Assembly: GCA_020523885.1 (NCBI GenBank)
Contig: JAJAPY010000009.1
Location: 1-64,000, forward strand
Length of the DNA: 64,000 nucleotides
Direction of reading: 5' to 3'
Origin: Candidatus Liberimonas magnetica
Lineage (GTDB): Bacteria > Elusimicrobiota > Endomicrobiia > Endomicrobiales > JAFGIL01
In this document: positions 3,266 to 58,029 of the stretch, piece by piece
Numbering within the stretch: the first letter of the stretch is position 1
Layout: every line of letters begins with the position of its first letter
Position numbers and translations under genes: made by a program
The notes under the pieces: generated by a model
What the model was told of the DNA's origin: nothing
The model's database searches: none
Seen by the model: only the letters and a program-made list of their open reading frames with translations

Positions 3266-5863
3266 TTATTTTATCTTTGTTTTTAATTTTAAGATTTCAG
3301 CGATTTTATGTTTAACTTGCGGGATTTTTACAGATGATACACTAAAATTTGTTAATCCCAGATCAAGCAATTTCTTTGTGTAATTTACATCAGCTGCAAG
3401 TTCGCCGCAAAGGATACATTCTTTATTCTGTTTTTTGGCTTCAGATATGACTTTACCTATATTTTCCAAAACAATTTCCGCACCAGCATCGAAATATTCT
3501 GCGACTGAAACATTTTCCCTTCCTGCAGCCATGACATATTGAATAAGGTCGTTCGAGCCTATGCTGACAAAATCCACAAGAGCCAGTATCTCTTTAATCT
3601 TTATAACAGAAGCTGGCGTCTCTATCATAGCCCCGACTTGTATTTTCCTGTCTTCATGTTTTTTCAGGCAGTTTTTTAACATTTCCTTAACCTGAACAAT
3701 TTCCTTAGGAATACTTACCATAGGGATAAGCAGTTTTAAATTGTACTTTTTACTTAAAGTTACAAAAGCTTTCAGCTGAGTTTCCAGCAATTTAGGGTTT
3801 TTCAGCAATACTCTTATTCCTCTTAAGCCAAGTAAAGATTCATTTCCTTCCATATCGATATATGGTAATGTCTTGTCGCCGCCCACATCCAACAGCCTTA
3901 CGGTTATCTCTCTTTTACCGATACCGGCGAATGAATCATTCAGTATCTGAACCAATTCATCAGAATTTGGCGGGATCCTTCTGCCCATATATATCATCTC
4001 GATCCTATATAAACCTATACCGTCACAGTTGTAGTCTATGGCTTGTTTTATGTTTCTTTTTAAACTTGCATTAGCAAGAACTTTAATGCCCGTATCTTTT
4101 TTTATTAAAGCTACATCCTTGATATTTTTACTTATATCTATTTCTTCCTGCTTTTTCTTTTTAATAGACTCTTCGTATTCACGAATCTCTTTTTTATCAG
4201 GATTTACTATTATTCTGCCCTTATCGGCATCAGCGATTATATAGGCATTGTTATTAATATCTTCCATACTTTTGTTTGTTTTTGCTATGTAAGGCACATT
4301 CATGCTTCTTGCCAACAATGCAGCGTGTGAATTCTTGCTTCCCTGTTCTGTAATTATCGCATTTACGTTGTCCCTGTTAAGACGTACTGTATCAGAAGGA
4401 AGAAGGCGTTCTGATACTAATATACTGCCTTTGGGAAGCCGTGCCAGGATATCAGCATCTTTCCCTGTCAGTGTAAGGAGCAACCTTCTGGCCAGGTCAG
4501 CGATATCATCTGACTTATCCCTTATGATCTCATTTTCCGAAACTTTAAACCTGTTTTCTAACCTCTTAAAAACTATTTTCACAATTTGTTCGGCATTAAG
4601 TTTTTCGCGCCTGATCTCATCCTCCAGGTTTTTTATTATCTGCGAATCGCTCAACATTACGCTTTGAGCATCAAAGATATCGGCATATTTTTTTTCAAGA
4701 ACATGTTCAACACGGTCTCTTGTTTTAATAATATCTTTTTTAACCTCTTTTAAAGCGCTGCATATCCTTTTGAATTCAAGTTCAACTTCTTCTTCTTTTA
4801 ATTCGCGAAACTCTATCTCTCTTGTCAATATATCCTTGTATAAAAAAGCTTTGCCCATGGCTATGCCGCCGGAGATCGGAGTGCCGGTTATTTCGTACCT
4901 GATACTTTTTGTCCTATGCCTGAAATCAATTATGCCTTCTTTTATTTTCTGGGCTTCGGTTTCTAAAATTGTCTTTTTATTCCTGTCAAAAATACTGATT
5001 TTTTCCTTACCTGACCTCTTGGCCTTATATAAAGCATCATCTGCAACTTCTAACAGTGTTTTTGCGTCATCAACATTTGACCTGTTAAAAAAGGAAACAC
5101 CTATGCTTACAGAGATATCTATCATGCCATTATTTGCTTTAAATGAGGTTTTACGAACAGCCTTAAACAATTTCGAGGCAATTAGCTGAGCATGTTTTTT
5201 CGAACATTCAGGCAAAAGCACCACAAATTCATCCCCGCCAAACCTGTAAACAATATCTGATTTCTTTCTATGCTTAAGCAAAACAGCGACAACTTTATTA
5301 ACTACTTTATCACCAGCAATATGCCCAAATTTATCATTTATCTTTTTCAATTTATCCAGATCAATAAATAATATTGATAATTTGCCCCCATCTTTTCTTA
5401 TCTGCTTGATCTTAATATCCAGATCATGAAAAAGAATCCTCTTGTCAAACAATTTGCTGCCCAGATCTAAAACCGCAGATTTTGCTATGCTTGTTATTTG
5501 AGCTTCTTTTATTATTGTAGAGTCGTGCATAATTTCTTTTTGATTCCTGAAAAAATCCAGGACCGCGACCTGAATACTTATCCTTCTTTTCAGTTTACTT
5601 TCAATATGTTTTTTATGCTTTACTATTTTGTTAAAAGTATTTTTTGCTTCCCCGGGGCTTTTAATGAATATATGTGTAAGAAAGTATATAACTTCAACAT
5701 AGAACGCATTCCCTAATTCTTTCTTATACTGTTTTATTAATTTTGCATCCGAAGCAGTACCCCTGGTGTCACCGGCCAATATTTCTATCATTTTTATGTT
5801 AATTTCATGCTTATTGGCTATCTTCAGCTCTTCTTCTTCTTTGTTTAAATGTATCTGTTTCAT
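3266..5863 (-). CDS. GGDEF - PTS enzyme I (PEP-protein phosphotransferase) fusion
   Basis: The 865-aa cytoplasmic protein has an N-terminal helical part (1-135), a GGDEF diguanylate cyclase domain (about 140-310, intact RFGGDEF near 207-213) and a complete enzyme I-like half (about 325-865). The enzyme I half has the ISGGIAMGKA opening, a swivelling His domain (GSKNSHAALLAR, phospho-His near 512), the PEP-binding barrel with LDVGGDKT and SIGSNDLIQY, and the catalytic Cys in CILCGELAAD. The c-di-GMP inhibitory site RxxD is KKSD, so product inhibition by that site is doubtful. The known GAF-enzyme I (PtsP) architecture is mimicked with GGDEF in place of GAF. No HPr or EIIA gene is nearby. GAGG lies 9 nt before the ATG. 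Confidence 0.85.
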   Translation of the reverse strand: MKQIHLNKEEEELKIANKHEINIKMIEILAGDTRGTASDAKLIKQYKKELGNAFYVEVIYFLTHIFIKSPGEAKNTFNKIVKHKKHIESKLKRRISIQVAVLDFFRNQKEIMHDSTIIKEAQITSIAKSAVLDLGSKLFDKRILFHDLDIKIKQIRKDGGKLSILFIDLDKLKKINDKFGHIAGDKVVNKVVAVLLKHRKKSDIVYRFGGDEFVVLLPECSKKHAQLIASKLFKAVRKTSFKANNGMIDISVSIGVSFFNRSNVDDAKTLLEVADDALYKAKRSGKEKISIFDRNKKTILETEAQKIKEGIIDFRHRTKSIRYEITGTPISGGIAMGKAFLYKDILTREIEFRELKEEEVELEFKRICSALKEVKKDIIKTRDRVEHVLEKKYADIFDAQSVMLSDSQIIKNLEDEIRREKLNAEQIVKIVFKRLENRFKVSENEIIRDKSDDIADLARRLLLTLTGKDADILARLPKGSILVSERLLPSDTVRLNRDNVNAIITEQGSKNSHAALLARSMNVPYIAKTNKSMEDINNNAYIIADADKGRIIVNPDKKEIREYEESIKKKKQEEIDISKNIKDVALIKKDTGIKVLANASLKRNIKQAIDYNCDGIGLYRIEMIYMGRRIPPNSDELVQILNDSFAGIGKREITVRLLDVGGDKTLPYIDMEGNESLLGLRGIRVLLKNPKLLETQLKAFVTLSKKYNLKLLIPMVSIPKEIVQVKEMLKNCLKKHEDRKIQVGAMIETPASVIKIKEILALVDFVSIGSNDLIQYVMAAGRENVSVAEYFDAGAEIVLENIGKVISEAKKQNKECILCGELAADVNYTKKLLDLGLTNFSVSSVKIPQVKHKIAEILKLKTKIK

Positions 5864-5891
5864 TTTTCAATCCTCATTTTTACAATATTGA

Positions 5892-6797
5892 TTAGAATAA
5901 ATATGATAAATTACAGACAACAATGTTTATTTTGTAGCTTAGCAAATTGTTGTCAATAAATGAATCTGTATAAATATATTTTATCGTGAAAGACAAGCCT
6001 TCTTGTACAATTTTTTCAAGGCCGCTTTCAAAATAGAAAGTGTCAGTTCTATTGTCATTGTTTACTTGCTGAGACCCCGGACCTGCTTTGATTGACATTC
6101 TTACACCGTTCACCAAACCTCTTCTATATGCGGCTATATAACGTTGAAAATTGATAGTCTCAGGGTTAAAATATCCTATAGCGTTTATATTTGTATTTCT
6201 GAACTGGCGGTGCCATACCTGTAGAGACAATCCTTCTGGCGGAAGAAACAAGATACCTTTTAAAAGCAAACCTGTTCTTTCATTCCCATCACTGAAACTT
6301 CTGGAGTCGACGCCCGCTATTGCTACAAACTTTTTATGAATTGGAACATCAAGGCTTGCAAACAAAGTCGTGACAGATATATCATTATCAAAACAAATGA
6401 AAGTATCTACTATGGTTTTGTCTACAGTTGTTTCAAACCGGAATCCGCCAGGAGTTGTATAGACTGCATTACCTCCAAATAACGGCATTGATCTTTTCAG
6501 GTATTGAAGCGACCCTCCTTGTAAAGAAAATAGCCACCTGTCATATGCTTTATTCGTATATTTTAATTGATAAGATTGAGTACTTTGTGATCTTATTGAA
6601 TCGTTATACCCGGAATAACCAAACAACAAACCAAGCGTTGAATGTTTTCTCAGTGCATCATTAATAGAGAAAATATGCTGCTCAACGAACAGGTTATCGC
6701 TGTCCTTGGCATAATATCCTTCGTAAGCCGGAAAAAATGCATCGCACATGACAGATAAGAACAACAAAATGGAAGTTGCGACAATTACTTTCCTCAT
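5892..6797 (-). CDS. Secreted outer-membrane beta-barrel protein beside the glycan synthase
   Basis: The true start is the ATG at 6797 (MRKVIVATSILLFLSVMCDAF), which overlaps the TGA of the preceding synthase as ATGA; the frame open further upstream is not needed. After the signal peptide the roughly 300-aa chain has alternating polar/hydrophobic beta strands throughout, and it ends in KINIVVCNLSYLF with a terminal Phe, the usual barrel end. It resembles YaiO-type barrels. Coupled translation with the family 2 glycosyltransferase suggests a role in export or surface attachment of the polysaccharide; this is inferred from context. Confidence 0.65.
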   Translation of the reverse strand: MRKVIVATSILLFLSVMCDAFFPAYEGYYAKDSDNLFVEQHIFSINDALRKHSTLGLLFGYSGYNDSIRSQSTQSYQLKYTNKAYDRWLFSLQGGSLQYLKRSMPLFGGNAVYTTPGGFRFETTVDKTIVDTFICFDNDISVTTLFASLDVPIHKKFVAIAGVDSRSFSDGNERTGLLLKGILFLPPEGLSLQVWHRQFRNTNINAIGYFNPETINFQRYIAAYRRGLVNGVRMSIKAGPGSQQVNNDNRTDTFYFESGLEKIVQEGLSFTIKYIYTDSFIDNNLLSYKINIVVCNLSYLF

Positions 6798-8080
6798 CTT
6801 GAACCCCACGTTTTTTTCAGGGACAATAGCTCCGTAAAATAGCCTGAAACAGATGCCGGTGAAAGGAAGAATTGATACACAGTAATATACATTAAGAATC
6901 CCCATAAATTTCTTCTTACTTTCAGTCCCTGCGTATAAAACATTTTATTTTGTATCGTAAACATTAAATAATTCATAATAAAAGTCAACGGCAAAACGAG
7001 CAAAGTGTAAGGCCCTGCAATGAAAAAGTATCCGAATAAAGCCAGGATAATACCCGGAACGAATATGAAGAGATAAACAGAATCAAGCATTGGAAACGCC
7101 AAGTTCCAGAATATGAACAAAGTTGAGAACCTGTCTTGAAATAGTATCCTGGGGTTATACTTGAAACCTTCTATCATGCCTCTGGCCCAGCGTTTTTTCT
7201 GCTGGTAAAATGCTTTATATGTCTCAGGAACATTAGTAAATGATACTGCGTTTTCCGCAAACCCGGTGCGGTAGCCTCGGCTCAATAAATCCCATGTTAG
7301 AACTATATCTTCACCTACAACCGTCCTCCATCCGCCTATCTTCTTAAGGATATCTTTCCGGTATATTGAGAATGCCCCCTGCACTACAAGCGTACCCTGA
7401 AAAAGGCTCTGCATCCTCTTTATTGAGCCTATACCCAGGAAATAATCCCATTCCTGCAGTTTTGTCAGCATATTCTTCCTGGAGTTCCTTGCAAGCACAG
7501 CTCCGGCTACAGCTGCGGTATTTTGCGGATCAGAATACATACGTTCAACTATGTTCTTTAAAGCATTACGCCACAGATATGTATCTGAATCAACTGATAC
7601 TATGAGGTCGTACTTAGCCTCTCTTAACCCTGCATTTAACGCCTCCGCTTTACCCTTGTGGTTATTATTTAGAACCTTTATTCCTGGCAAGGCTGTAAGT
7701 ATTAGTGAAGTCCTGTCTGTAGAACCGTCGTCAACGACTATTATCTCTAAAGGCCCTTCATATCCATTTTTCTGTATAGATTCAACCGTATCCACAATTT
7801 TATTCGACTCATTATAATCAGGAATGAGAATAGTTAAACCCGGATATTCAGAACAATATTTCGTCTGCGGGCGATGGTCAGCCAGGAGGCTCAGGGCTAA
7901 AAACATATATATGTAACCAGGAATGATCGCTATGGAATATACAAGAAAACAAGCAATAATGAAAGGCATATATTTCGCAAGGCTTTCCATCCATGGAGTA
8001 GCCAGATATATGCACAAAACCACCCACAACATTGAAGCTGTCAGGCAGAAATAGAATTTATTTTTTACGGGAATGTACAT
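6794..8080 (-). CDS. Family 2 glycosyltransferase, PgaC/IcaA-like polysaccharide synthase
   Basis: The 428-aa inner-membrane processive glycosyltransferase has two N-terminal membrane segments (about 10-70), the GT2 catalytic core with DDGSTDRT, DSDTYLW and GEDI (a D,D,D series), the QKKRWARG (QxxRW) acceptor motif near 290, and C-terminal membrane helices from about 310. Such enzymes polymerise poly-GlcNAc or related glycans from a UDP-sugar. The neighbouring barrel and the cyclic-nucleotide genes upstream fit biofilm matrix control. No deacetylase (PgaB) gene is adjacent, so the exact polymer is open. GAGGGG lies 13 nt before the ATG. Confidence 0.8.
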   Translation of the reverse strand: MYIPVKNKFYFCLTASMLWVVLCIYLATPWMESLAKYMPFIIACFLVYSIAIIPGYIYMFLALSLLADHRPQTKYCSEYPGLTILIPDYNESNKIVDTVESIQKNGYEGPLEIIVVDDGSTDRTSLILTALPGIKVLNNNHKGKAEALNAGLREAKYDLIVSVDSDTYLWRNALKNIVERMYSDPQNTAAVAGAVLARNSRKNMLTKLQEWDYFLGIGSIKRMQSLFQGTLVVQGAFSIYRKDILKKIGGWRTVVGEDIVLTWDLLSRGYRTGFAENAVSFTNVPETYKAFYQQKKRWARGMIEGFKYNPRILFQDRFSTLFIFWNLAFPMLDSVYLFIFVPGIILALFGYFFIAGPYTLLVLPLTFIMNYLMFTIQNKMFYTQGLKVRRNLWGFLMYITVYQFFLSPASVSGYFTELLSLKKTWGSR

Positions 8081-9354: not shown

Positions 9355-10644
9355 TCATGCCGGATGGGTTCCACAGAGATGGTATCGGGCACGGCCTGCT
9401 TGCTTGGCTTGATACATAGCGATATCGGCGTTTTTCATGAGGGTACTTTCATCTATTCCATCATTGGGATAGACAGCGATTCCAACACTCGTTGTCACAA
9501 CAAGTTGATGGCCGTCAATGAGAAATGGCTTGCAAAAACTCTCAACTATCTGATGTACAACCTGGATTGAATCTTCTATTTCCTTAAGGCCTGGAAGTAT
9601 CAACACAAACTCGTCGCCGCCGAAACGCGCAACGGTATCACATTTTCTCAGAGCTGCACTTAGCCGCTCTGCCGCAGCTTTTAGAAGGTTATCCCCCACA
9701 GCATGTCCCAGGGTATCATTTACACCCTTAAAATTGTCAAGGTCGAGCATAGCGATCCCTACTTCTTTTTTATCCCTCTGGGCCTGGGCTAAAGCAATAT
9801 CCAGGCGATCTGAGAAAAGCTTCCGGTTCGGAAGGCCAGTCAGGGAATCATGGTAAACCATTTGCTGTATTTTTTCCTCTGACTGCTTTCGTTGAGTGAT
9901 GTCTTCGATAGCCAGAAGGATTATCCGTTCCTTGCCCATACCTCTTTTAATTTGCCTGGCATTCAAGAGCATGATGTGCCTGCCTATTGCGGTAAAATCG
10001 TGTTCAACCTCATAGTTATCAAAGGTTGTCTTTTGTGGAAGGATAGTTTCCAATAGCTCCCTCAGCTTCGGGATATTCCATTGTTTATTGCCTAAATCAT
10101 ATATAAGCTGTCCCACGGTCTCTTCAGGTTTAACCTTAAAAAATTCATAGAAGGAACGGCTTACTGAAACAACTCTGAGGTCTTGATCCAAAGAAATTAA
10201 GGGTTCACGTACGGTATTGATAATGCTCTCGGCGTATTCGCGAGCTTCATCTACTTCGTCATGCAAAGACTTTACTTTTAGAAGCGACTTTACCCTGATT
10301 AAAAGCTCATGTTTATCAAAAGGTTTAGAGATAAAATCATCGCACCCTGCTTCAAGAGCTTTTATCCTGTCTTCTGTCTCATTAAGCGCCGTGACCATAA
10401 CTACAGGGATTAGATGCGTCTTTTCATCGGAGCGTAATTCCTTAAGCACTTCAAAACCGGACATCCTGGGCATCATTATGTCTAAGAGGACCAGATCGAT
10501 TTGAATGCCTGAAAGTTTTTCCAGCGCTTCTTGGCCGCTTGCCGCTTTAACAACTTCATAACCCTGCGGAACAAGCTGTGCTTCCAGAAGTTCTATGTTT
10601 TTAGGCTCGTCATCAACAATTAAAATTACCGGTTTAGTTTTCAC
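9355..10644 (-). CDS. Response regulator - PAS - GGDEF diguanylate cyclase
   Basis: In order the 429 residues hold a receiver (5-120; VLLDIMMPRMSG, FISKPF), a PAS domain (about 135-258) and a GGDEF domain (about 265-425). The active-site RFGGDEF is intact and preceded by RKCD, a proper RxxD inhibitory site, so this is a likely active, feedback-inhibited c-di-GMP synthase. The PAS domain is almost identical to the four PAS repeats of the histidine kinase upstream (11033-14104), so it shares their origin. The start is GTG at 10644. It probably receives phosphate from that kinase. It is transcribed after the lone receiver with a 26-bp gap. Confidence 0.85.
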   Translation of the reverse strand: MKTKPVILIVDDEPKNIELLEAQLVPQGYEVVKAASGQEALEKLSGIQIDLVLLDIMMPRMSGFEVLKELRSDEKTHLIPVVMVTALNETEDRIKALEAGCDDFISKPFDKHELLIRVKSLLKVKSLHDEVDEAREYAESIINTVREPLISLDQDLRVVSVSRSFYEFFKVKPEETVGQLIYDLGNKQWNIPKLRELLETILPQKTTFDNYEVEHDFTAIGRHIMLLNARQIKRGMGKERIILLAIEDITQRKQSEEKIQQMVYHDSLTGLPNRKLFSDRLDIALAQAQRDKKEVGIAMLDLDNFKGVNDTLGHAVGDNLLKAAAERLSAALRKCDTVARFGGDEFVLILPGLKEIEDSIQVVHQIVESFCKPFLIDGHQLVVTTSVGIAVYPNDGIDESTLMKNADIAMYQAKQAGRARYHLCGTHPA

Positions 10645-10670: not shown

Positions 10671-11036
10671 TTATTTAATATGTTGAGCGATTTCTTTTGC
10701 AAAGGTGCGCGTATTTATCGGTTTGCCTATAAATCCTGAGTTCGTTATGTCTTTTATCTCGTCTCTGCCTTCTCCCATTACAGAAGCAGTCACAAAAACA
10801 ATTGGAATATCGCTTGTGTCTTTACCTTGACGCAACAGCCTGGCTGCATCGGAACCACGCATATCAGGAAGCCTAATATCCATAATGATAACATCCGGCT
10901 TTTCTCTTTTTGCAATAGCAATTCCATCTGCGACATTTTCAGCTTCGAACACTTCAAAATCGGCAACTTCTAAAAGGTCTTTTTCCAGCATAAGATTATT
11001 TCTATTGTCATCGACAATTAATACTTTCTTTTTCAT
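10671..11036 (-). CDS. Single-domain response regulator (DivK/CheY-like)
   Basis: This 121-aa receiver has no output domain. VLIVDDNRNN carries the acidic pair, IIMDIRLPDMRG the phospho-Asp (about residue 53), VTAS the conserved Thr, and GKPI the Lys. Its ATG overlaps the TGA of the histidine kinase gene (ATGA), so the two are translationally coupled and it is the obvious cognate phospho-acceptor. It may shuttle phosphate to, or modulate, the downstream GGDEF and cyclase regulators. AGGTGA lies within the end of the kinase gene. Confidence 0.85.
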   Translation of the reverse strand: MKKKVLIVDDNRNNLMLEKDLLEVADFEVFEAENVADGIAIAKREKPDVIIMDIRLPDMRGSDAARLLRQGKDTSDIPIVFVTASVMGEGRDEIKDITNSGFIGKPINTRTFAKEIAQHIK

Positions 11037-14000
11037 AACACAATCACCTCTCTGGATATAATAGGTAAAGTAAACCTGACCAGCGTGCCTTTATTTAAGC
11101 CTTTTGATTCTACGGAAAGCTTCCCGCCGTGCAGTTCAACGAGCTTTTTAGAGAGCGGCAAACCAAGCCCGGTGCCTTCAGTTACCCGTGAATAAGGGGT
11201 ATCAACGCGAAAAAATCCTTCAAATATTTTCTCCATGTTTTCAGGCGCAATACCGTCACCAGTATCCCATACCTCTACTTCAATATCTGAACCCGTGTTC
11301 TTCGCACGCATGCCGATATTACCTCCCTCCGGGGTAAACTTAACTGCGTTTGATAGCAGATTGTAAATTATCTCCTTTACCTTGAGCTCGTCTGCCTCAA
11401 TATTCGGCAGGTCATCTGCTATTTCAAGCTGCATTTGAAGCTTCTTTTTACTGACCAGATCCGCTATCAGAAGAGAGATTTCGTTTAGCAGGCTTTTTAA
11501 CGGCAAGGTGGATAACGATGTCTTCATCTTTCCAGATTCGACTTTTGCCATATCAAGTATCTGATTTATAAGTAAGAGAAGGTGCTTTCCGCTGGTCAAA
11601 ACGTTGTTAACATATTTCTTCTGCTTGTCATTAAGCGGACCGAAAGTCTGGTCGTATAATACTTCCGAAAAACCGTTAATCGAGTTTAGCGGTGTCCTAA
11701 GTTCATGCGACATGTTTGCCAGAAATATGGATTTTGCTTTAGTGGTACGTTTTAACTCGATAGCCAACTCTTGTAATTCTTCATGTGCTTTTTCCAAACC
11801 ATTCTCTATCTCCCTGCGTTCCGTAATGTCTTCAATGGCAAGAAGGATGATCCTCTCTTTTCCCAGCACTCTGTGTATCTGCCGGGCATTCAAAAGCATG
11901 ATGCGCCTGCCAATGGCGGCAAAATCATGTTCAACTTCATAGTTATCAAAAGTTGCCTTTTGGGGAAGGATAGTTTCCAGCAATTCCCTCAATTTTGGGA
12001 TATTCCACTGTTTATTGCCCAAGTCATAAATAAGCTGTCCCACTGTCTCCTCAGGTTTCACCTTAAAGACTTCATAGAAGGAACGGCTGACCGAGACTAC
12101 CCTTAGATCTTGATCCAGGGATATAAGAGGTTCACGCACAGTGTTAATAACGCTCTCGGCGTATTCGCGGGCCGCATCTTCGGATATTTTAGTTACTTCC
12201 AGTTCTTTACGGACTTTTTCCAGGCCGTTTTCTATTTCCCTGCGGGCTGTAATGTCCTCGATTGACAGGAGGATAATCCGCTCTTTCCCCAACACTCTTT
12301 TAATCTGCCGGGCATTCAAAAGCATGATACGCCGGCCAATGGTTGTAAAATCGTGTTCAACTTCATAGTTATCAAATGTTGCCTTTTGGGGAAGGATGGT
12401 TTCAAGGAGTTCCCTAAGTTTCGGGATATTCCATTGTTTATTACCGAGGTCATAAATAAGCTGCCCCACGGTTTCTTCAGGTTTCACCTTAAAGACTTCA
12501 TAGAAGGAACGGCTGACCGAGACCACCCTTAGATCTTGATCCATAGCGATCAAGGGTTCACGCACGGTGTTGATAATGCTCTCTGAGTATTCGCGGGCCG
12601 CATCTTCGGATATTTTAGTTATTTCCAGTTCTTTACGGACTTTTTCCAGCCCGTTTTCTATCTCCCTTCGCTCGGTTATGTCTTCGATAGCCAGAAGGAT
12701 TATCCTCTCTTTTCCCAACACTCGTTTAATCTGCCGGGCATTCAAAAGCATGATACGCCTGCCAATAGTGGCAAAATCGTGTTCAACCTCATAGTTATCA
12801 AAGGTTGCCTTTTGGGGAAGGATGGTTTCCAGCAGTTCACGCAACTTAGGGATGTCCCACTGTTTATTGCCCAGATCATAAATAAGCTGTCCCACGGTCT
12901 CTTCGGGTTTTACCTTAAAGACTTCATAGAAAGAACGGCTGACCGAAACCACTCTTAGATCTTGGTCCAAAGAAATTAATGGTTCTCGAACAGTGTTAAT
13001 AACGCTCTCAGCAAATTCACTGACATCATCTGCTGATTTCTTTATAGTTTCCAGTTCTTTACGCGCTTTTTCCAGCCCGTTTTCTATCTCCCTGCGCGCT
13101 GTGATGTCTTCGATGGCAAGGAGGATGATGCGTCTTTTCCCCGATTCTCTTTTAATCTGGCGGGCATTTAAAAGCATGGTGCGCCTGCCGATAGTGGCAA
13201 AATCGTGTTCAACCTCATAGTTATCAAAAGTTGCCTTTTGAGGAAGGATGGTTTCCAGCAGTTCCCTAAGTTTGTGAATATCCCACTGTTTATTTCCCAA
13301 GTCATAAATAAGCTGTCCAACGGTTTCTTCAGGTTTTACCTTAAAAACTTCATAGAAGGAACGGCTGGCGGTAACCACCCTCAGATCTTTATCTAGTGCG
13401 ATCAAGGGTTCACGTACTGTGTTAATAATGCTTTCTGCGTATTCGCGGGCTTCATCTTCGTACATTTTAGTTGTTTTTAATAGCAGATGTTGTGTTTCTT
13501 GATACGTCAGAAAGGTTAACACAAATGCAAATAAAAGCATAATCAGTCCGATTATAACGATGGTTATAAACAGGTAGCGCATGTTAGATTGGAACTCTGC
13601 TTCGTGATGATCTAACGCTTCTTCTTCTATCTGGATGAAGCCGCGCATCTCGGCCCGGATCGAATCCATCAACCGATTGCCCTGGCTGCTGCGTACATTT
13701 TCCAAGGAGGCGCTCATGTCATGGTTGCGGCGTAATTTAATGCTGTATGCCAGATATGACAATTTAGACCCTATCAATGGTTTCAGCACATCCAGCCGCT
13801 TATGGGCATCGCCGATCAATGTAAGGTGACGCAATTCATTCAATCGTCCCTTGATACTATCGCACACCGCTAAATAGGGTTTCAGAAAAACCTCGTCGCC
13901 TGTCAGAGAATAGCCTCGCTGGCCTGTCTCGGCATCTATCAATGAAGACATCAAATCGTTAGCGCGGTTTATCAGAATTAACGAATGCTGCCGTGACGCG

Positions 14001-14104
14001 GCTGCTTTTTTTATCTGATTGAAAGCCCAGAACGAAACTACCACCATCGCAATAAGTATCGCCGCTCCAACAAGCGAAGCAATAACTTTATAAGTATTTT
14101 TCAC
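11033..14104 (-). CDS. CHASE3 sensor histidine kinase with four tandem PAS domains
   Basis: The kinase has two N-terminal membrane helices flanking a periplasmic CHASE3 domain (about 35-185; ETGQRGYSLTG). Four PAS units of 142 residues follow (about 225, 367, 509 and 651 onward), then HisKA (SHELRTP, His near 804) and HATPase (NAVKFT, DTGDGI, GTGLGL) to the C-terminus. The four PAS units are so alike that the DNA repeats every 426 bp. I prefer GTG at 14104 because GGAGG lies 5 nt before it; an ATG at 14116 would place that site inside the gene. It heads the operon with the lone receiver, the PAS-GGDEF protein and probably the cyclase. Confidence 0.9.
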   Translation of the reverse strand: MKNTYKVIASLVGAAILIAMVVVSFWAFNQIKKAAASRQHSLILINRANDLMSSLIDAETGQRGYSLTGDEVFLKPYLAVCDSIKGRLNELRHLTLIGDAHKRLDVLKPLIGSKLSYLAYSIKLRRNHDMSASLENVRSSQGNRLMDSIRAEMRGFIQIEEEALDHHEAEFQSNMRYLFITIVIIGLIMLLFAFVLTFLTYQETQHLLLKTTKMYEDEAREYAESIINTVREPLIALDKDLRVVTASRSFYEVFKVKPEETVGQLIYDLGNKQWDIHKLRELLETILPQKATFDNYEVEHDFATIGRRTMLLNARQIKRESGKRRIILLAIEDITARREIENGLEKARKELETIKKSADDVSEFAESVINTVREPLISLDQDLRVVSVSRSFYEVFKVKPEETVGQLIYDLGNKQWDIPKLRELLETILPQKATFDNYEVEHDFATIGRRIMLLNARQIKRVLGKERIILLAIEDITERREIENGLEKVRKELEITKISEDAAREYSESIINTVREPLIAMDQDLRVVSVSRSFYEVFKVKPEETVGQLIYDLGNKQWNIPKLRELLETILPQKATFDNYEVEHDFTTIGRRIMLLNARQIKRVLGKERIILLSIEDITARREIENGLEKVRKELEVTKISEDAAREYAESVINTVREPLISLDQDLRVVSVSRSFYEVFKVKPEETVGQLIYDLGNKQWNIPKLRELLETILPQKATFDNYEVEHDFAAIGRRIMLLNARQIHRVLGKERIILLAIEDITERREIENGLEKAHEELQELAIELKRTTKAKSIFLANMSHELRTPLNSINGFSEVLYDQTFGPLNDKQKKYVNNVLTSGKHLLLLINQILDMAKVESGKMKTSLSTLPLKSLLNEISLLIADLVSKKKLQMQLEIADDLPNIEADELKVKEIIYNLLSNAVKFTPEGGNIGMRAKNTGSDIEVEVWDTGDGIAPENMEKIFEGFFRVDTPYSRVTEGTGLGLPLSKKLVELHGGKLSVESKGLNKGTLVRFTLPIISREVIVL

Positions 14105-14123
14105 AGAGACCTCCATAAAATCT

Positions 14124-56399: not shown

Positions 56400-57110
56400 T
56401 CGTCTGACAGTGCCTCATTAGCGTAACCATGCCCCGTTTCCAACTCCTGCCACATCAAACCGTACGTGAGGTTCTCCCTCATACGGCTTTCCGACAACAT
56501 TCTTCTGTTGCATTCAAAGTGCCTGTTTCTCGGCTCTTCTTGGCTGACAGATATAACGTGAGCTGGAGTTCTCGTGATTTTTTTTCTGGTGTTGTTGGCC
56601 TGTTAGGGCATGCACCGTCACTTACCTCCGTTACATGTCTTGTTGAAGCAGAGACCCTTCCCTATGAAAAGTTATGTTGTCTTTTCAATCATCGGTACTA
56701 TGACCTCATCCGACTTCTTGACAGGCTTCGTTCAGAGTTTCGCTTTCGCTTATATCCTTACTTCCGCCTACTTCTTGCGACCTGTCAAGCTCTCCCTTGT
56801 TTCATAAAATACTTTCCCAGCATTCCGCTCCCCATATGCCGAAGAGTTCTTCAGGGCTGCTTCTCCAGATTCTTCACCCCTTATTTCGCCTTCGCTACAT
56901 TAGAACAGCTCGGCTCTCTTTCTTAAAGCTAACGACACTGCAGGATTCCCTTTAATGGTACGGACTGCTGTTTTGCATCTCATCCTCTGAGATTTCATCC
57001 GCTTTGACGCATCCAGTCACCCAGTGCATCAGGATTTAGCTATCTGGCTCTCTGGCGATTACCAGTATCGGACTTCCACCGATGAGTATTCTATGCCTTG
57101 CAAGGCACAC
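56400..57110 (-). mobile_element. Group II intron lacking its reverse transcriptase ORF
   Basis: On the minus strand the 5' end is GTGTG at 57110, the GUGYG consensus. Internally, GTCGGATGAGGTCATAGTACC (56692-56712), normally just before the intron ORF, is followed within 200 nt by a domain V hairpin at 56457-56490 with the AGC triad (AGCCGTATGAGG/CCTCACGTACGG). No reverse transcriptase can be encoded in that space, so the intron is ORF-less or deleted. The 3' boundary is uncertain (about 56400). Apparent plus-strand reading frames here are antisense to intron RNA. Flanks 56222-56399 and 57111-57210 show no gene. Confidence 0.7.
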
Positions 57111-57210: not shown

Positions 57211-58029
57211 CTACTTCAACAGCTTAACATGTTTTGACAGGCCTAAATAATTTTTTTTTGTGGAAACTCGCTTGCCTGTTTCTTTTTCGTGATATTCTCT
57301 TGCCTTGCCGGCCACAGTGCCGCCTCTTTTTGCAACATCTTTGTTTTGCTCGAAACCTATCGCATCTTCGGTCTGGGCAATATCTGTTGTGGAAGCTTCG
57401 CCTAGCATTGTAAATATCAACTCAAGGTCTGTCATGTGGTCGCGCAGGTTTTCTCGTTTCAGGTGTTTGAATTTCACATACTGGCTTGGAGTCATGCCGA
57501 AAGTTGCTTTCGATATTTCCGCGGTAAGTATTGAGTATTCTCTTTCTTCCTTTACGTTCCGGTTTTTCCATTCATCCGTGAGTTTGTCACGGACGGCAAT
57601 ACCGCGCATTCGTTTTTCTATCCAATCATCAGGATAACCCTTGAGTTTATAAAGCATTCTGGTTCTTTTAGTGGCAAGCTCCGGGTTCTCTATTTCCTGT
57701 ACCCGTTCATAGCCCACTTTCGCCAGCCAGCGTTTGAAAGGTTCAGCTTTGGGTGATGGGATTGACTGGATTATCCTGAAAATGCCTTCTGTATTGGCAC
57801 AGTTCATTTTCTGCCTGCCTCCCCCTGTCTGGATTTCAAGGGTATGGACAATTTGTCCATACCCTTTGGAAAGCTCTTCATCTCTAAGACGCATTTTGTT
57901 TATATAGTCTTTAGGGTTGTGAGTATTGGTCAACGCTAAAACTACATCTTCAACAACAAACCACCACTCATTATTGTGAATTGTTTTTCTGATGTTTTTG
58001 TTTTTGAACACGGCTATTTTTGTTTCCAT
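57211..58029 (-). CDS. Bro-N domain (phage antirepressor-like) protein
   Basis: This 272-aa protein has an N-terminal Bro-N DNA-binding domain (about 5-110; NEWWFVVEDVVLALTNTHNP, RLRDEELSKGYGQIV, NTEGIFRIIQSIPSPKAEPF), a central helical part and a basic C-terminus (KETGKRVSTKKNYLGLSKH). Bro/antirepressor proteins regulate prophage and mobile-element genes. GGAGG lies 4 nt before the ATG. A fragment of the same gene lies at 334-495, in the same order relative to the 125-aa gene and recombinase remnant. Confidence 0.85.
   Translation of the reverse strand: METKIAVFKNKNIRKTIHNNEWWFVVEDVVLALTNTHNPKDYINKMRLRDEELSKGYGQIVHTLEIQTGGGRQKMNCANTEGIFRIIQSIPSPKAEPFKRWLAKVGYERVQEIENPELATKRTRMLYKLKGYPDDWIEKRMRGIAVRDKLTDEWKNRNVKEEREYSILTAEISKATFGMTPSQYVKFKHLKRENLRDHMTDLELIFTMLGEASTTDIAQTEDAIGFEQNKDVAKRGGTVAGKAREYHEKETGKRVSTKKNYLGLSKHVKLLK

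Follow-up and report, generated by a model that had tools for sequence, protein, structure and literature searches.

The window analyzed here, that is, the entire 64-kb stretch of the Candidatus Liberimonas magnetica contig, harbors on its minus strand a gene whose product combines a GGDEF domain with a PTS enzyme I (EI) (Table 1). Directly upstream is a gene for a probable outer-membrane beta-barrel, whose stop codon is separated from the start of the fusion gene by 28 bases and whose likely true start is the ATG at 6797-6795, which is in frame and forms an ATGA overlap with the stop codon of the preceding gene. The latter gene encodes a family 2 glycosyltransferase (GT2), the best NCBIfam relative of which is PgaC/IcaA, with a score (185.9 bits) below the equivalog cut-off of 422.3. 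On the basis of the ATGA junction and the short intergenic gap, the GT2, barrel, and fusion genes look like a single transcription unit. Promoter and terminator scans returned numbers close to expectation (25 versus 20.2 in shuffles, and 8 versus 5.6, respectively).

Farther upstream are located adenylate-cyclase and PAS-GGDEF response regulators, a receiver, identified as such by eye, and a histidine kinase of the CHASE3-PAS type. The kinase (11033-14116) carries, in addition to CHASE3, four PAS repeats which appear by eye to be near-identical both to one another and to the PAS encoded within the response regulator gene at 9355-10644, indicating recent tandem copying. Elsewhere in the window, positions 56953-57085 match the Group II intron D1-D4-4 RNA (70.7 bits, gathering 49); a Bro-N gene (57211-58029) adjoins this match, and no reverse transcriptase was present among the ten ORFs scanned.

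Table 1. Features of the fusion gene and of the two genes upstream of it
Feature	Positions	Strand	Basis
Family 2 glycosyltransferase (GT2)	6794..8080	-	Pfam, NCBIfam
Probable outer-membrane beta-barrel, directly upstream of the fusion	5892..6905	-	By eye; no Pfam/NCBIfam match
Shine-Dalgarno-like GAGGA of the fusion gene	5871..5875	-	Read by eye
Fusion CDS, 865 aa, N-domain + GGDEF + EI	3266..5863	-	ORF, Pfam, NCBIfam
N-terminal domain, residues 1-125	5489..5863	-	Alignment with relatives
GGDEF domain, residues 132-287, YRFGGDEF motif, without RxxD	5003..5470	-	Pfam, E 1.5e-36
Linker, residues 288-325	4889..5002	-	Gap between Pfam matches
EI N-terminal domain PEP-utilisers_N, residues 326-449	4517..4888	-	Pfam, E 1.2e-21
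EI mobile phospho-His domain PEP-utilizers, residues 476-549	4217..4438	-	Pfam, E 8.6e-18
H513 codon (E. coli EI His189), within GSKNSH	4325..4327	-	Alignment
EI PEP-binding/dimerization domain PEP-utilizers_C, residues 584-857	3293..4114	-	Pfam, E 4.7e-74

The fusion is specified by one unbroken frame, which starts with ATG and spans 865 codons, and the first-pass annotation, which had described a GGDEF domain and a complete EI in one chain, is borne out with exact coordinates. All four Pfam domains, among them the three EI domains in their proper order, score above the curated cut-offs, and the NCBIfam model TIGR01417 (PTS_I_fam) aligns to residues 325-857 with 396.9 bits, exceeding its cut-off (341.7). 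The PEP-utilisers_N segment covers most of the HPr-binding helical part of the EI family. The solved structures closest to the EI part are themselves EI proteins (2hro; E 1.7e-76 over residues 324-855), and that closest to the GGDEF part is DosC (4zve; E 1.3e-29 over residues 133-293); structure prediction for the fusion from its single sequence yielded a mean pLDDT of 35.1, too low for the model to be usable. GAF, previously stated to be replaced here by GGDEF, is indeed absent from the six Pfam families that match at E values up to 0.01. What the initial description of the chain overlooked is the further domain at its N terminus.

The source genome (3.39 Mb, 97.8% complete) encodes a second copy of the fusion on another contig, C20. 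This paralogue (874 aa) exhibits the same order of N-terminal domain, GGDEF, and EI, shares 44% identity with the window copy, and possesses catalytic domains above the curated cut-offs. It sits between the gene for the trehalose phosphatase OtsB and a DUF5752 gene, in a run that comprises a GT20 synthase, an MscS-like channel (by eye), OtsB, the paralogue, DUF5752, and TreT. This trehalose set (L088:6369-14939) brings two trehalose routes together with a GGDEF-EI protein, and its GT20 protein has a membrane part, HAMP-like by eye. Both copies of the fusion adjoin genes for carbohydrate synthesis, namely, GT2 and the barrel in one case and the trehalose set in the other. A frameshift joining two genes, raised by the first-pass annotation as a possible objection, is contradicted by the unbroken frame and by the diverged second copy with the same domain order; on the same evidence, a sequencing or assembly artefact is ruled out, the chance of two genes having been joined in this manner being negligible. 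The fusion is a real and unusual two-enzyme protein which occurs twice in one genome.

Within the GGDEF domain, the YRFGGDEF motif (residues 206-213) is intact, and the motif residues to which we ascribe GTP- and metal-site roles are present, in accordance with the active site claimed previously; the loss of GTP-binding residues, which had been put forward as an argument against the fusion, is not observed. The RxxD motif represents the product-inhibition site of GGDEF diguanylate cyclases, in which it is optional. The corresponding position reads KKSD in the window fusion, agreeing with the reported absence of this site, and RVID in the paralogue. At the position equivalent to R446 (PleD numbering), the GGDEF domain of the fusion contains Lys. 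GGDEF enzymes act as dimers, in which two domains come face to face. Across the genome, ten GGDEF matches above the cut-off and six PilZ matches were identified.

To assess the condition of the EI part, 39 EI domains were aligned (those of the two fusions and 37 others), with the E. coli positions taken from an alignment to chain 2kx9. The window fusion retains H513, R620, R656, R681, E748, N771, D772, R782, and C819, which are the counterparts of E. coli H189, R296, R332, R358, E431, N454, D455, R465, and C502, residues which we take to be those of the phospho-His and PEP site. These nine catalytic residues are found in both fusions (9/9) and are identical in 37/37 of the other EIs. The signature around the active His, GGxTSH, is not preserved in the fusions, reading GSKNSH in the window copy and GSKSSH in the paralogue; among the other EIs, the second G is present in 34/37 (S in 3) and the T in 35/37 (S in 2). 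The equivalent of T297 is I and L in the two fusions and T or S in the other EIs, and that of D464 is G in the fusions and D in 36/37 of the others.

Compared with the genome's own PtsI, the EI parts of the two fusions show only 31% identity; with each other, they share 46%. When 86 positions that are invariant across 32 canonical EIs are considered, 62 are kept in the window fusion (with 24/86 changed), 65 in the paralogue, and 60 in a free EI-like protein encoded on contig C7. Compared to the genome's own PtsI, the helical EIN part is 28% identical and keeps 6/7 (window) and 7/7 (paralogue) of its invariants; the His-bearing part is 30% and 28% identical, respectively, and keeps 11/18 and 10/18 (14/18 in the C7 protein); and the PEP-binding part is 34% and 35% identical and keeps 41/56 and 44/56. 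Erosion is thus greatest in the His-bearing part, so that phosphotransfer may be weakened. It is conceivable that the EI part has become a degenerate scaffold for PEP binding and dimerization, through which PEP would be sensed as a ligand with no phosphotransfer to HPr, and the drifted His loop, the 24 canonical invariants lost from the window copy, the lower retention in the His-bearing than in the PEP-binding part, the long stem branch of the fused EIs, and the low identity of the helical part to PtsI would all be in keeping with such a fate. However, strong divergence has left H513, C819, and the PEP-site residues in place in both copies, and the helical HPr-binding part has lost a single invariant in one copy and none in the other, so that we regard this explanation as unlikely. 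The retention of the nine residues despite such divergence argues, at the level of sequence, for selection on catalysis; as the C7 protein is equally diverged and also keeps all nine, their retention says nothing for the fusion as such.

The N-terminal domain yielded no Pfam match in the window fusion, and neither this protein nor the paralogue matches DUF4032; a search of solved structures with the N-domain profile provided no lead (best E values 0.46 and 0.82). It is present in 17/340 genomes of the phylum. Each of the other 16 genomes encodes one such protein (complete in 14 cases, with frames of 367-441 aa between stop codons, and truncated by a contig end in the other two), and all 16 proteins display GGDEF or GGDEM in the alignment. 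Residues G31, A73, H83, R93, V99, D103, and N107 of the domain are identical in 19/19 aligned sequences. His83 was considered as an acceptor of the EI phosphate and is not favored, since proteins that lack EI have it as well. Weak matches to the C-terminal part of DUF4032 were obtained for 7/7 of the relatives scanned, with 1/7 above the cut-off. An AMPK-type glycogen-binding module was found above the cut-off at the C terminus of 6/6 proteins scanned with Pfam (of the 16). These proteins have the N-domain and GGDEF in common with the fusion but end in a glycogen-binding tail rather than EI, and, given this tail, carbohydrate-state input may be a theme of the N-GGDEF module. The family composed of N-domain, GGDEF, and AMPK-type glycogen-binding (CBM48-like) module represents a possible glycogen-state sensor for c-di-GMP in its own right, and several of the N-domain and GGDEF loci of other genomes (L125-L139, 15 loci, six of them scanned with Pfam and all six bearing the module) adjoin nrdR-like or dcd-like genes, as judged by eye.

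Five PEP-utilizers_C loci occur in the genome. In addition to the two fusions, these correspond to the canonical PtsI, encoded near HPr on contig C18 (660 bits on TIGR01417), the free EI-like protein on C7 (L089:5495-7216; 573 aa), which exceeds the TIGR01417 cut-off with 387.2 bits, and a fifth locus in a 947-aa frame on C19. The C7 protein has SNDK in place of GGDK, forms a long branch in the EI tree, and is encoded on a contig without an HPr match. Two HPr matches were obtained, on contigs C18 and C1. The second HPr-like gene (L091:6634-6900, minus strand, 88 aa) is flanked by genes for an Rrf2-like regulator and for cysteine/methionine synthesis (by eye), on a contig without any PEP-utilizers_C match. 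A mannose-family EIIA/B/C/D gene set is present on C18, and an HprK-like gene was recognized by eye. The assertion of the first-pass annotation that HPr and EII genes are not nearby stands, in that both HPr matches lie outside the 64-kb window and no EII gene was found among the 20 window proteins scanned with Pfam. Its companion claim, that the phosphate acceptor is unknown, is partly answered: since the genome encodes HPr twice together with a mannose-family PTS, the acceptor need not be unknown, and an EI acting without any PTS is ruled out. These PTS genes and the HprK-like gene, alongside the GGDEF and PilZ matches, show that both the PTS and the c-di-GMP pathway exist in the cell.

Phylogenetic analysis of the 39 EI domains places the fused EIs together in a single long-stemmed clade (100/100), which lies outside a 34-row clade (96/87) holding the canonical PtsI; a single fusion followed by duplication is, therefore, the simplest account. 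A tree of the N-domain and GGDEF region recovers a 100/100 group composed of the two fusions, a stand-alone copy on contig C6 of the same genome, and a truncated copy of genome G263, within which the two fusions pair at 92/52 only. The G263 copy ends at a contig end. As the EI matches of that genome comprise one frame of 558 aa and another of 905 aa that is matched in part, with no loose EI piece, a fusion in G263 is unlikely.

Searches for the complete architecture recovered it from a single species. Among 59 relatives (own genome included, up to 15 candidates scored), 49 gave a match at E values up to 1e-80; the two fusions aside, none of these matches begins before profile column 276, and they correspond to EI with or without upstream read-through. 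In 95 genomes of the class (up to 9 candidates scored), the only matching genome was the source genome itself. The same was true of the fusion in the 340 genomes of the phylum, where two candidates were scored in each and a miss is possible; five of these genomes match at E values up to 1e-112, four of them with EI only, from column 324 on. The 24 genomes behind the named loci (own genome absent, no positive control) yielded one match, to EI only, and no match was obtained from 35 genomes of another phylum (own genome absent, no positive control) or from 395 genomes drawn from a third phylum (own genome absent, two candidates scored, E values up to 1e-116, no positive control). Of the plasmid records, 212 match by tblastn, with none reaching 80% of the query. 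A contig scan by exact short peptides, which detects close relatives only, kept 80/98 relatives, whose best segments all fall within residues 67-313 (GGDEF). With the fusion found in one species only, no cross-species conservation supports its function. The linkers of the two fusions (34-38 aa) offer no hint of rigid coupling, as might be anticipated if two independent enzymes had been joined for co-expression alone, without mutual control; given that the fusion has outlasted duplication and 56% divergence, and that both activities would have to be needed at the same place twice, such an origin is considered highly improbable.

GT2 enzymes of the PgaC/IcaA-like type are linked to c-di-GMP, and PgaC of E. 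coli is activated by it. We propose that the fusion is a diguanylate cyclase which employs a whole PTS EI as its sensor, such that PEP/pyruvate and HPr status would be relayed through c-di-GMP to local exopolysaccharide synthesis, a reading to which we assign a probability of approximately 0.5. From the observed architecture and residues, we infer the coupling, its sign, and its output as follows. PEP and Mg2+ would bind the EI C-terminal domain, favor the dimer, and lead to phosphorylation of H513; EI dimerization and large domain movements would determine whether the paired GGDEF domains meet or separate within the dimer, and c-di-GMP output would track the PEP/pyruvate ratio. By draining phosphate during PTS sugar uptake, HPr would set or reset the phospho-state, and the most likely sign would be that high PEP combined with low PTS flux produces a dimeric, active cyclase. 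In view of the activation of E. coli PgaC by c-di-GMP, the likely local target would be the synthase of PgaC/IcaA-like type encoded in this apparent operon, and a corresponding role toward the trehalose gene set would fall to the paralogue. EI works as a dimer (PMC9856155, PMC7385036), and PEP binding shifts it to a dimeric, closed form (PMC9856155).

The fusion suggests that energy state may act directly on the production of surface polysaccharide, and the connection of PEP/pyruvate to c-di-GMP which this would entail, as proposed in the first-pass annotation, is a well-motivated hypothesis. Counting against the sensor reading are the location of EI behind the GGDEF domain, as sensor domains usually precede GGDEF, together with the drifted His motif, the changed T297 and D464 equivalents, and the Lys at the R446 position. 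Control might alternatively run in the reverse direction, with the GGDEF domain (bound to GTP or c-di-GMP) and the N-domain regulating the fused EI, which would then serve as an alternative entry point: by passing phosphate to HPr or HPr-2, it would adjust phosphorylation in the PTS or in regulation. Such an arrangement does not readily explain why the fusion adjoins a GT2 of the c-di-GMP-linked type, not HPr, why the full GGDEF motif is kept, and why the N-GGDEF module exists without EI in other genomes. In its favor, EI is the larger part of the protein and has all nine catalytic residues, the second HPr gene occupies a contig without a PEP-utilizers_C match, and EI-Ntr (PtsP) displays the same order, with GAF before EI, in an EI evolution study (PMC2405797). 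On balance, we judge reversed control to be rather unlikely. The preferred reading, in which EI informs the cyclase, may be extended to the relatives in the phylum: N-domain plus GGDEF would constitute a carbon-reserve cassette whose tail has been swapped between a glycogen-binding module and a catalytically live EI, and the EI form would act as a PEP/pyruvate sensor contained in one protein, with local control of c-di-GMP in one case for exopolysaccharide and in the other for trehalose synthesis. We offer this broader proposal tentatively, as a possibility less probable than the sensor reading itself.

The protein can be compared to several known systems. Like PTS enzyme I (PtsI; TIGR01417), it contains a whole EI above the family cut-off with nine catalytic residues, but it differs in the placement of EI behind GGDEF, the GSKNSH motif, and the lack of HPr alongside. 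With EI-Ntr, it shares the presence of another, likely regulatory domain before EI in one chain; however, there is no GAF, the domain in front (GGDEF) is of an enzyme type, and the PtsP model PRK11061 scores 305.1 bits, far under its cut-off of 583. Multiphosphoryl transfer proteins (EI with HPr and usually IIA) also embed EI in a multidomain chain (PMC2405797), whereas the fusion contains no HPr or IIA domain. The same study describes GAF+EI and HPr/IIA+EI proteins, and GGDEF is absent from its main text (PMC2405797). In Vibrio cholerae, EIIA-Glc/PdeS likewise exemplifies a PTS phospho-state acting on c-di-GMP turnover, and PTS-linked c-di-GMP enzymes in that account use receiver proteins or domains farther down the PTS chain, whereas the fusion holds the first enzyme, EI, in one chain with the cyclase; the part of the account available makes no mention of EI fused to a cyclase (PMC8846402). 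Among the matches listed by a full-text search of the open-licence literature, no title or abstract opening refers to a GGDEF-EI fusion.

In the printed sources, as far as their available portions extend, links from the PTS to c-di-GMP run via downstream receivers such as EIIA-Glc. If the two activities are coupled, an EI located covalently within a cyclase would read PEP at the very first PTS step, and a single purified protein would suffice to test a direct switch from energy state to c-di-GMP. The pairing of cassettes, with a glycogen-binding tail elsewhere and EI here, would also suggest a way in which such cells couple carbon stores to the synthesis of surface polysaccharide and osmoprotectant.
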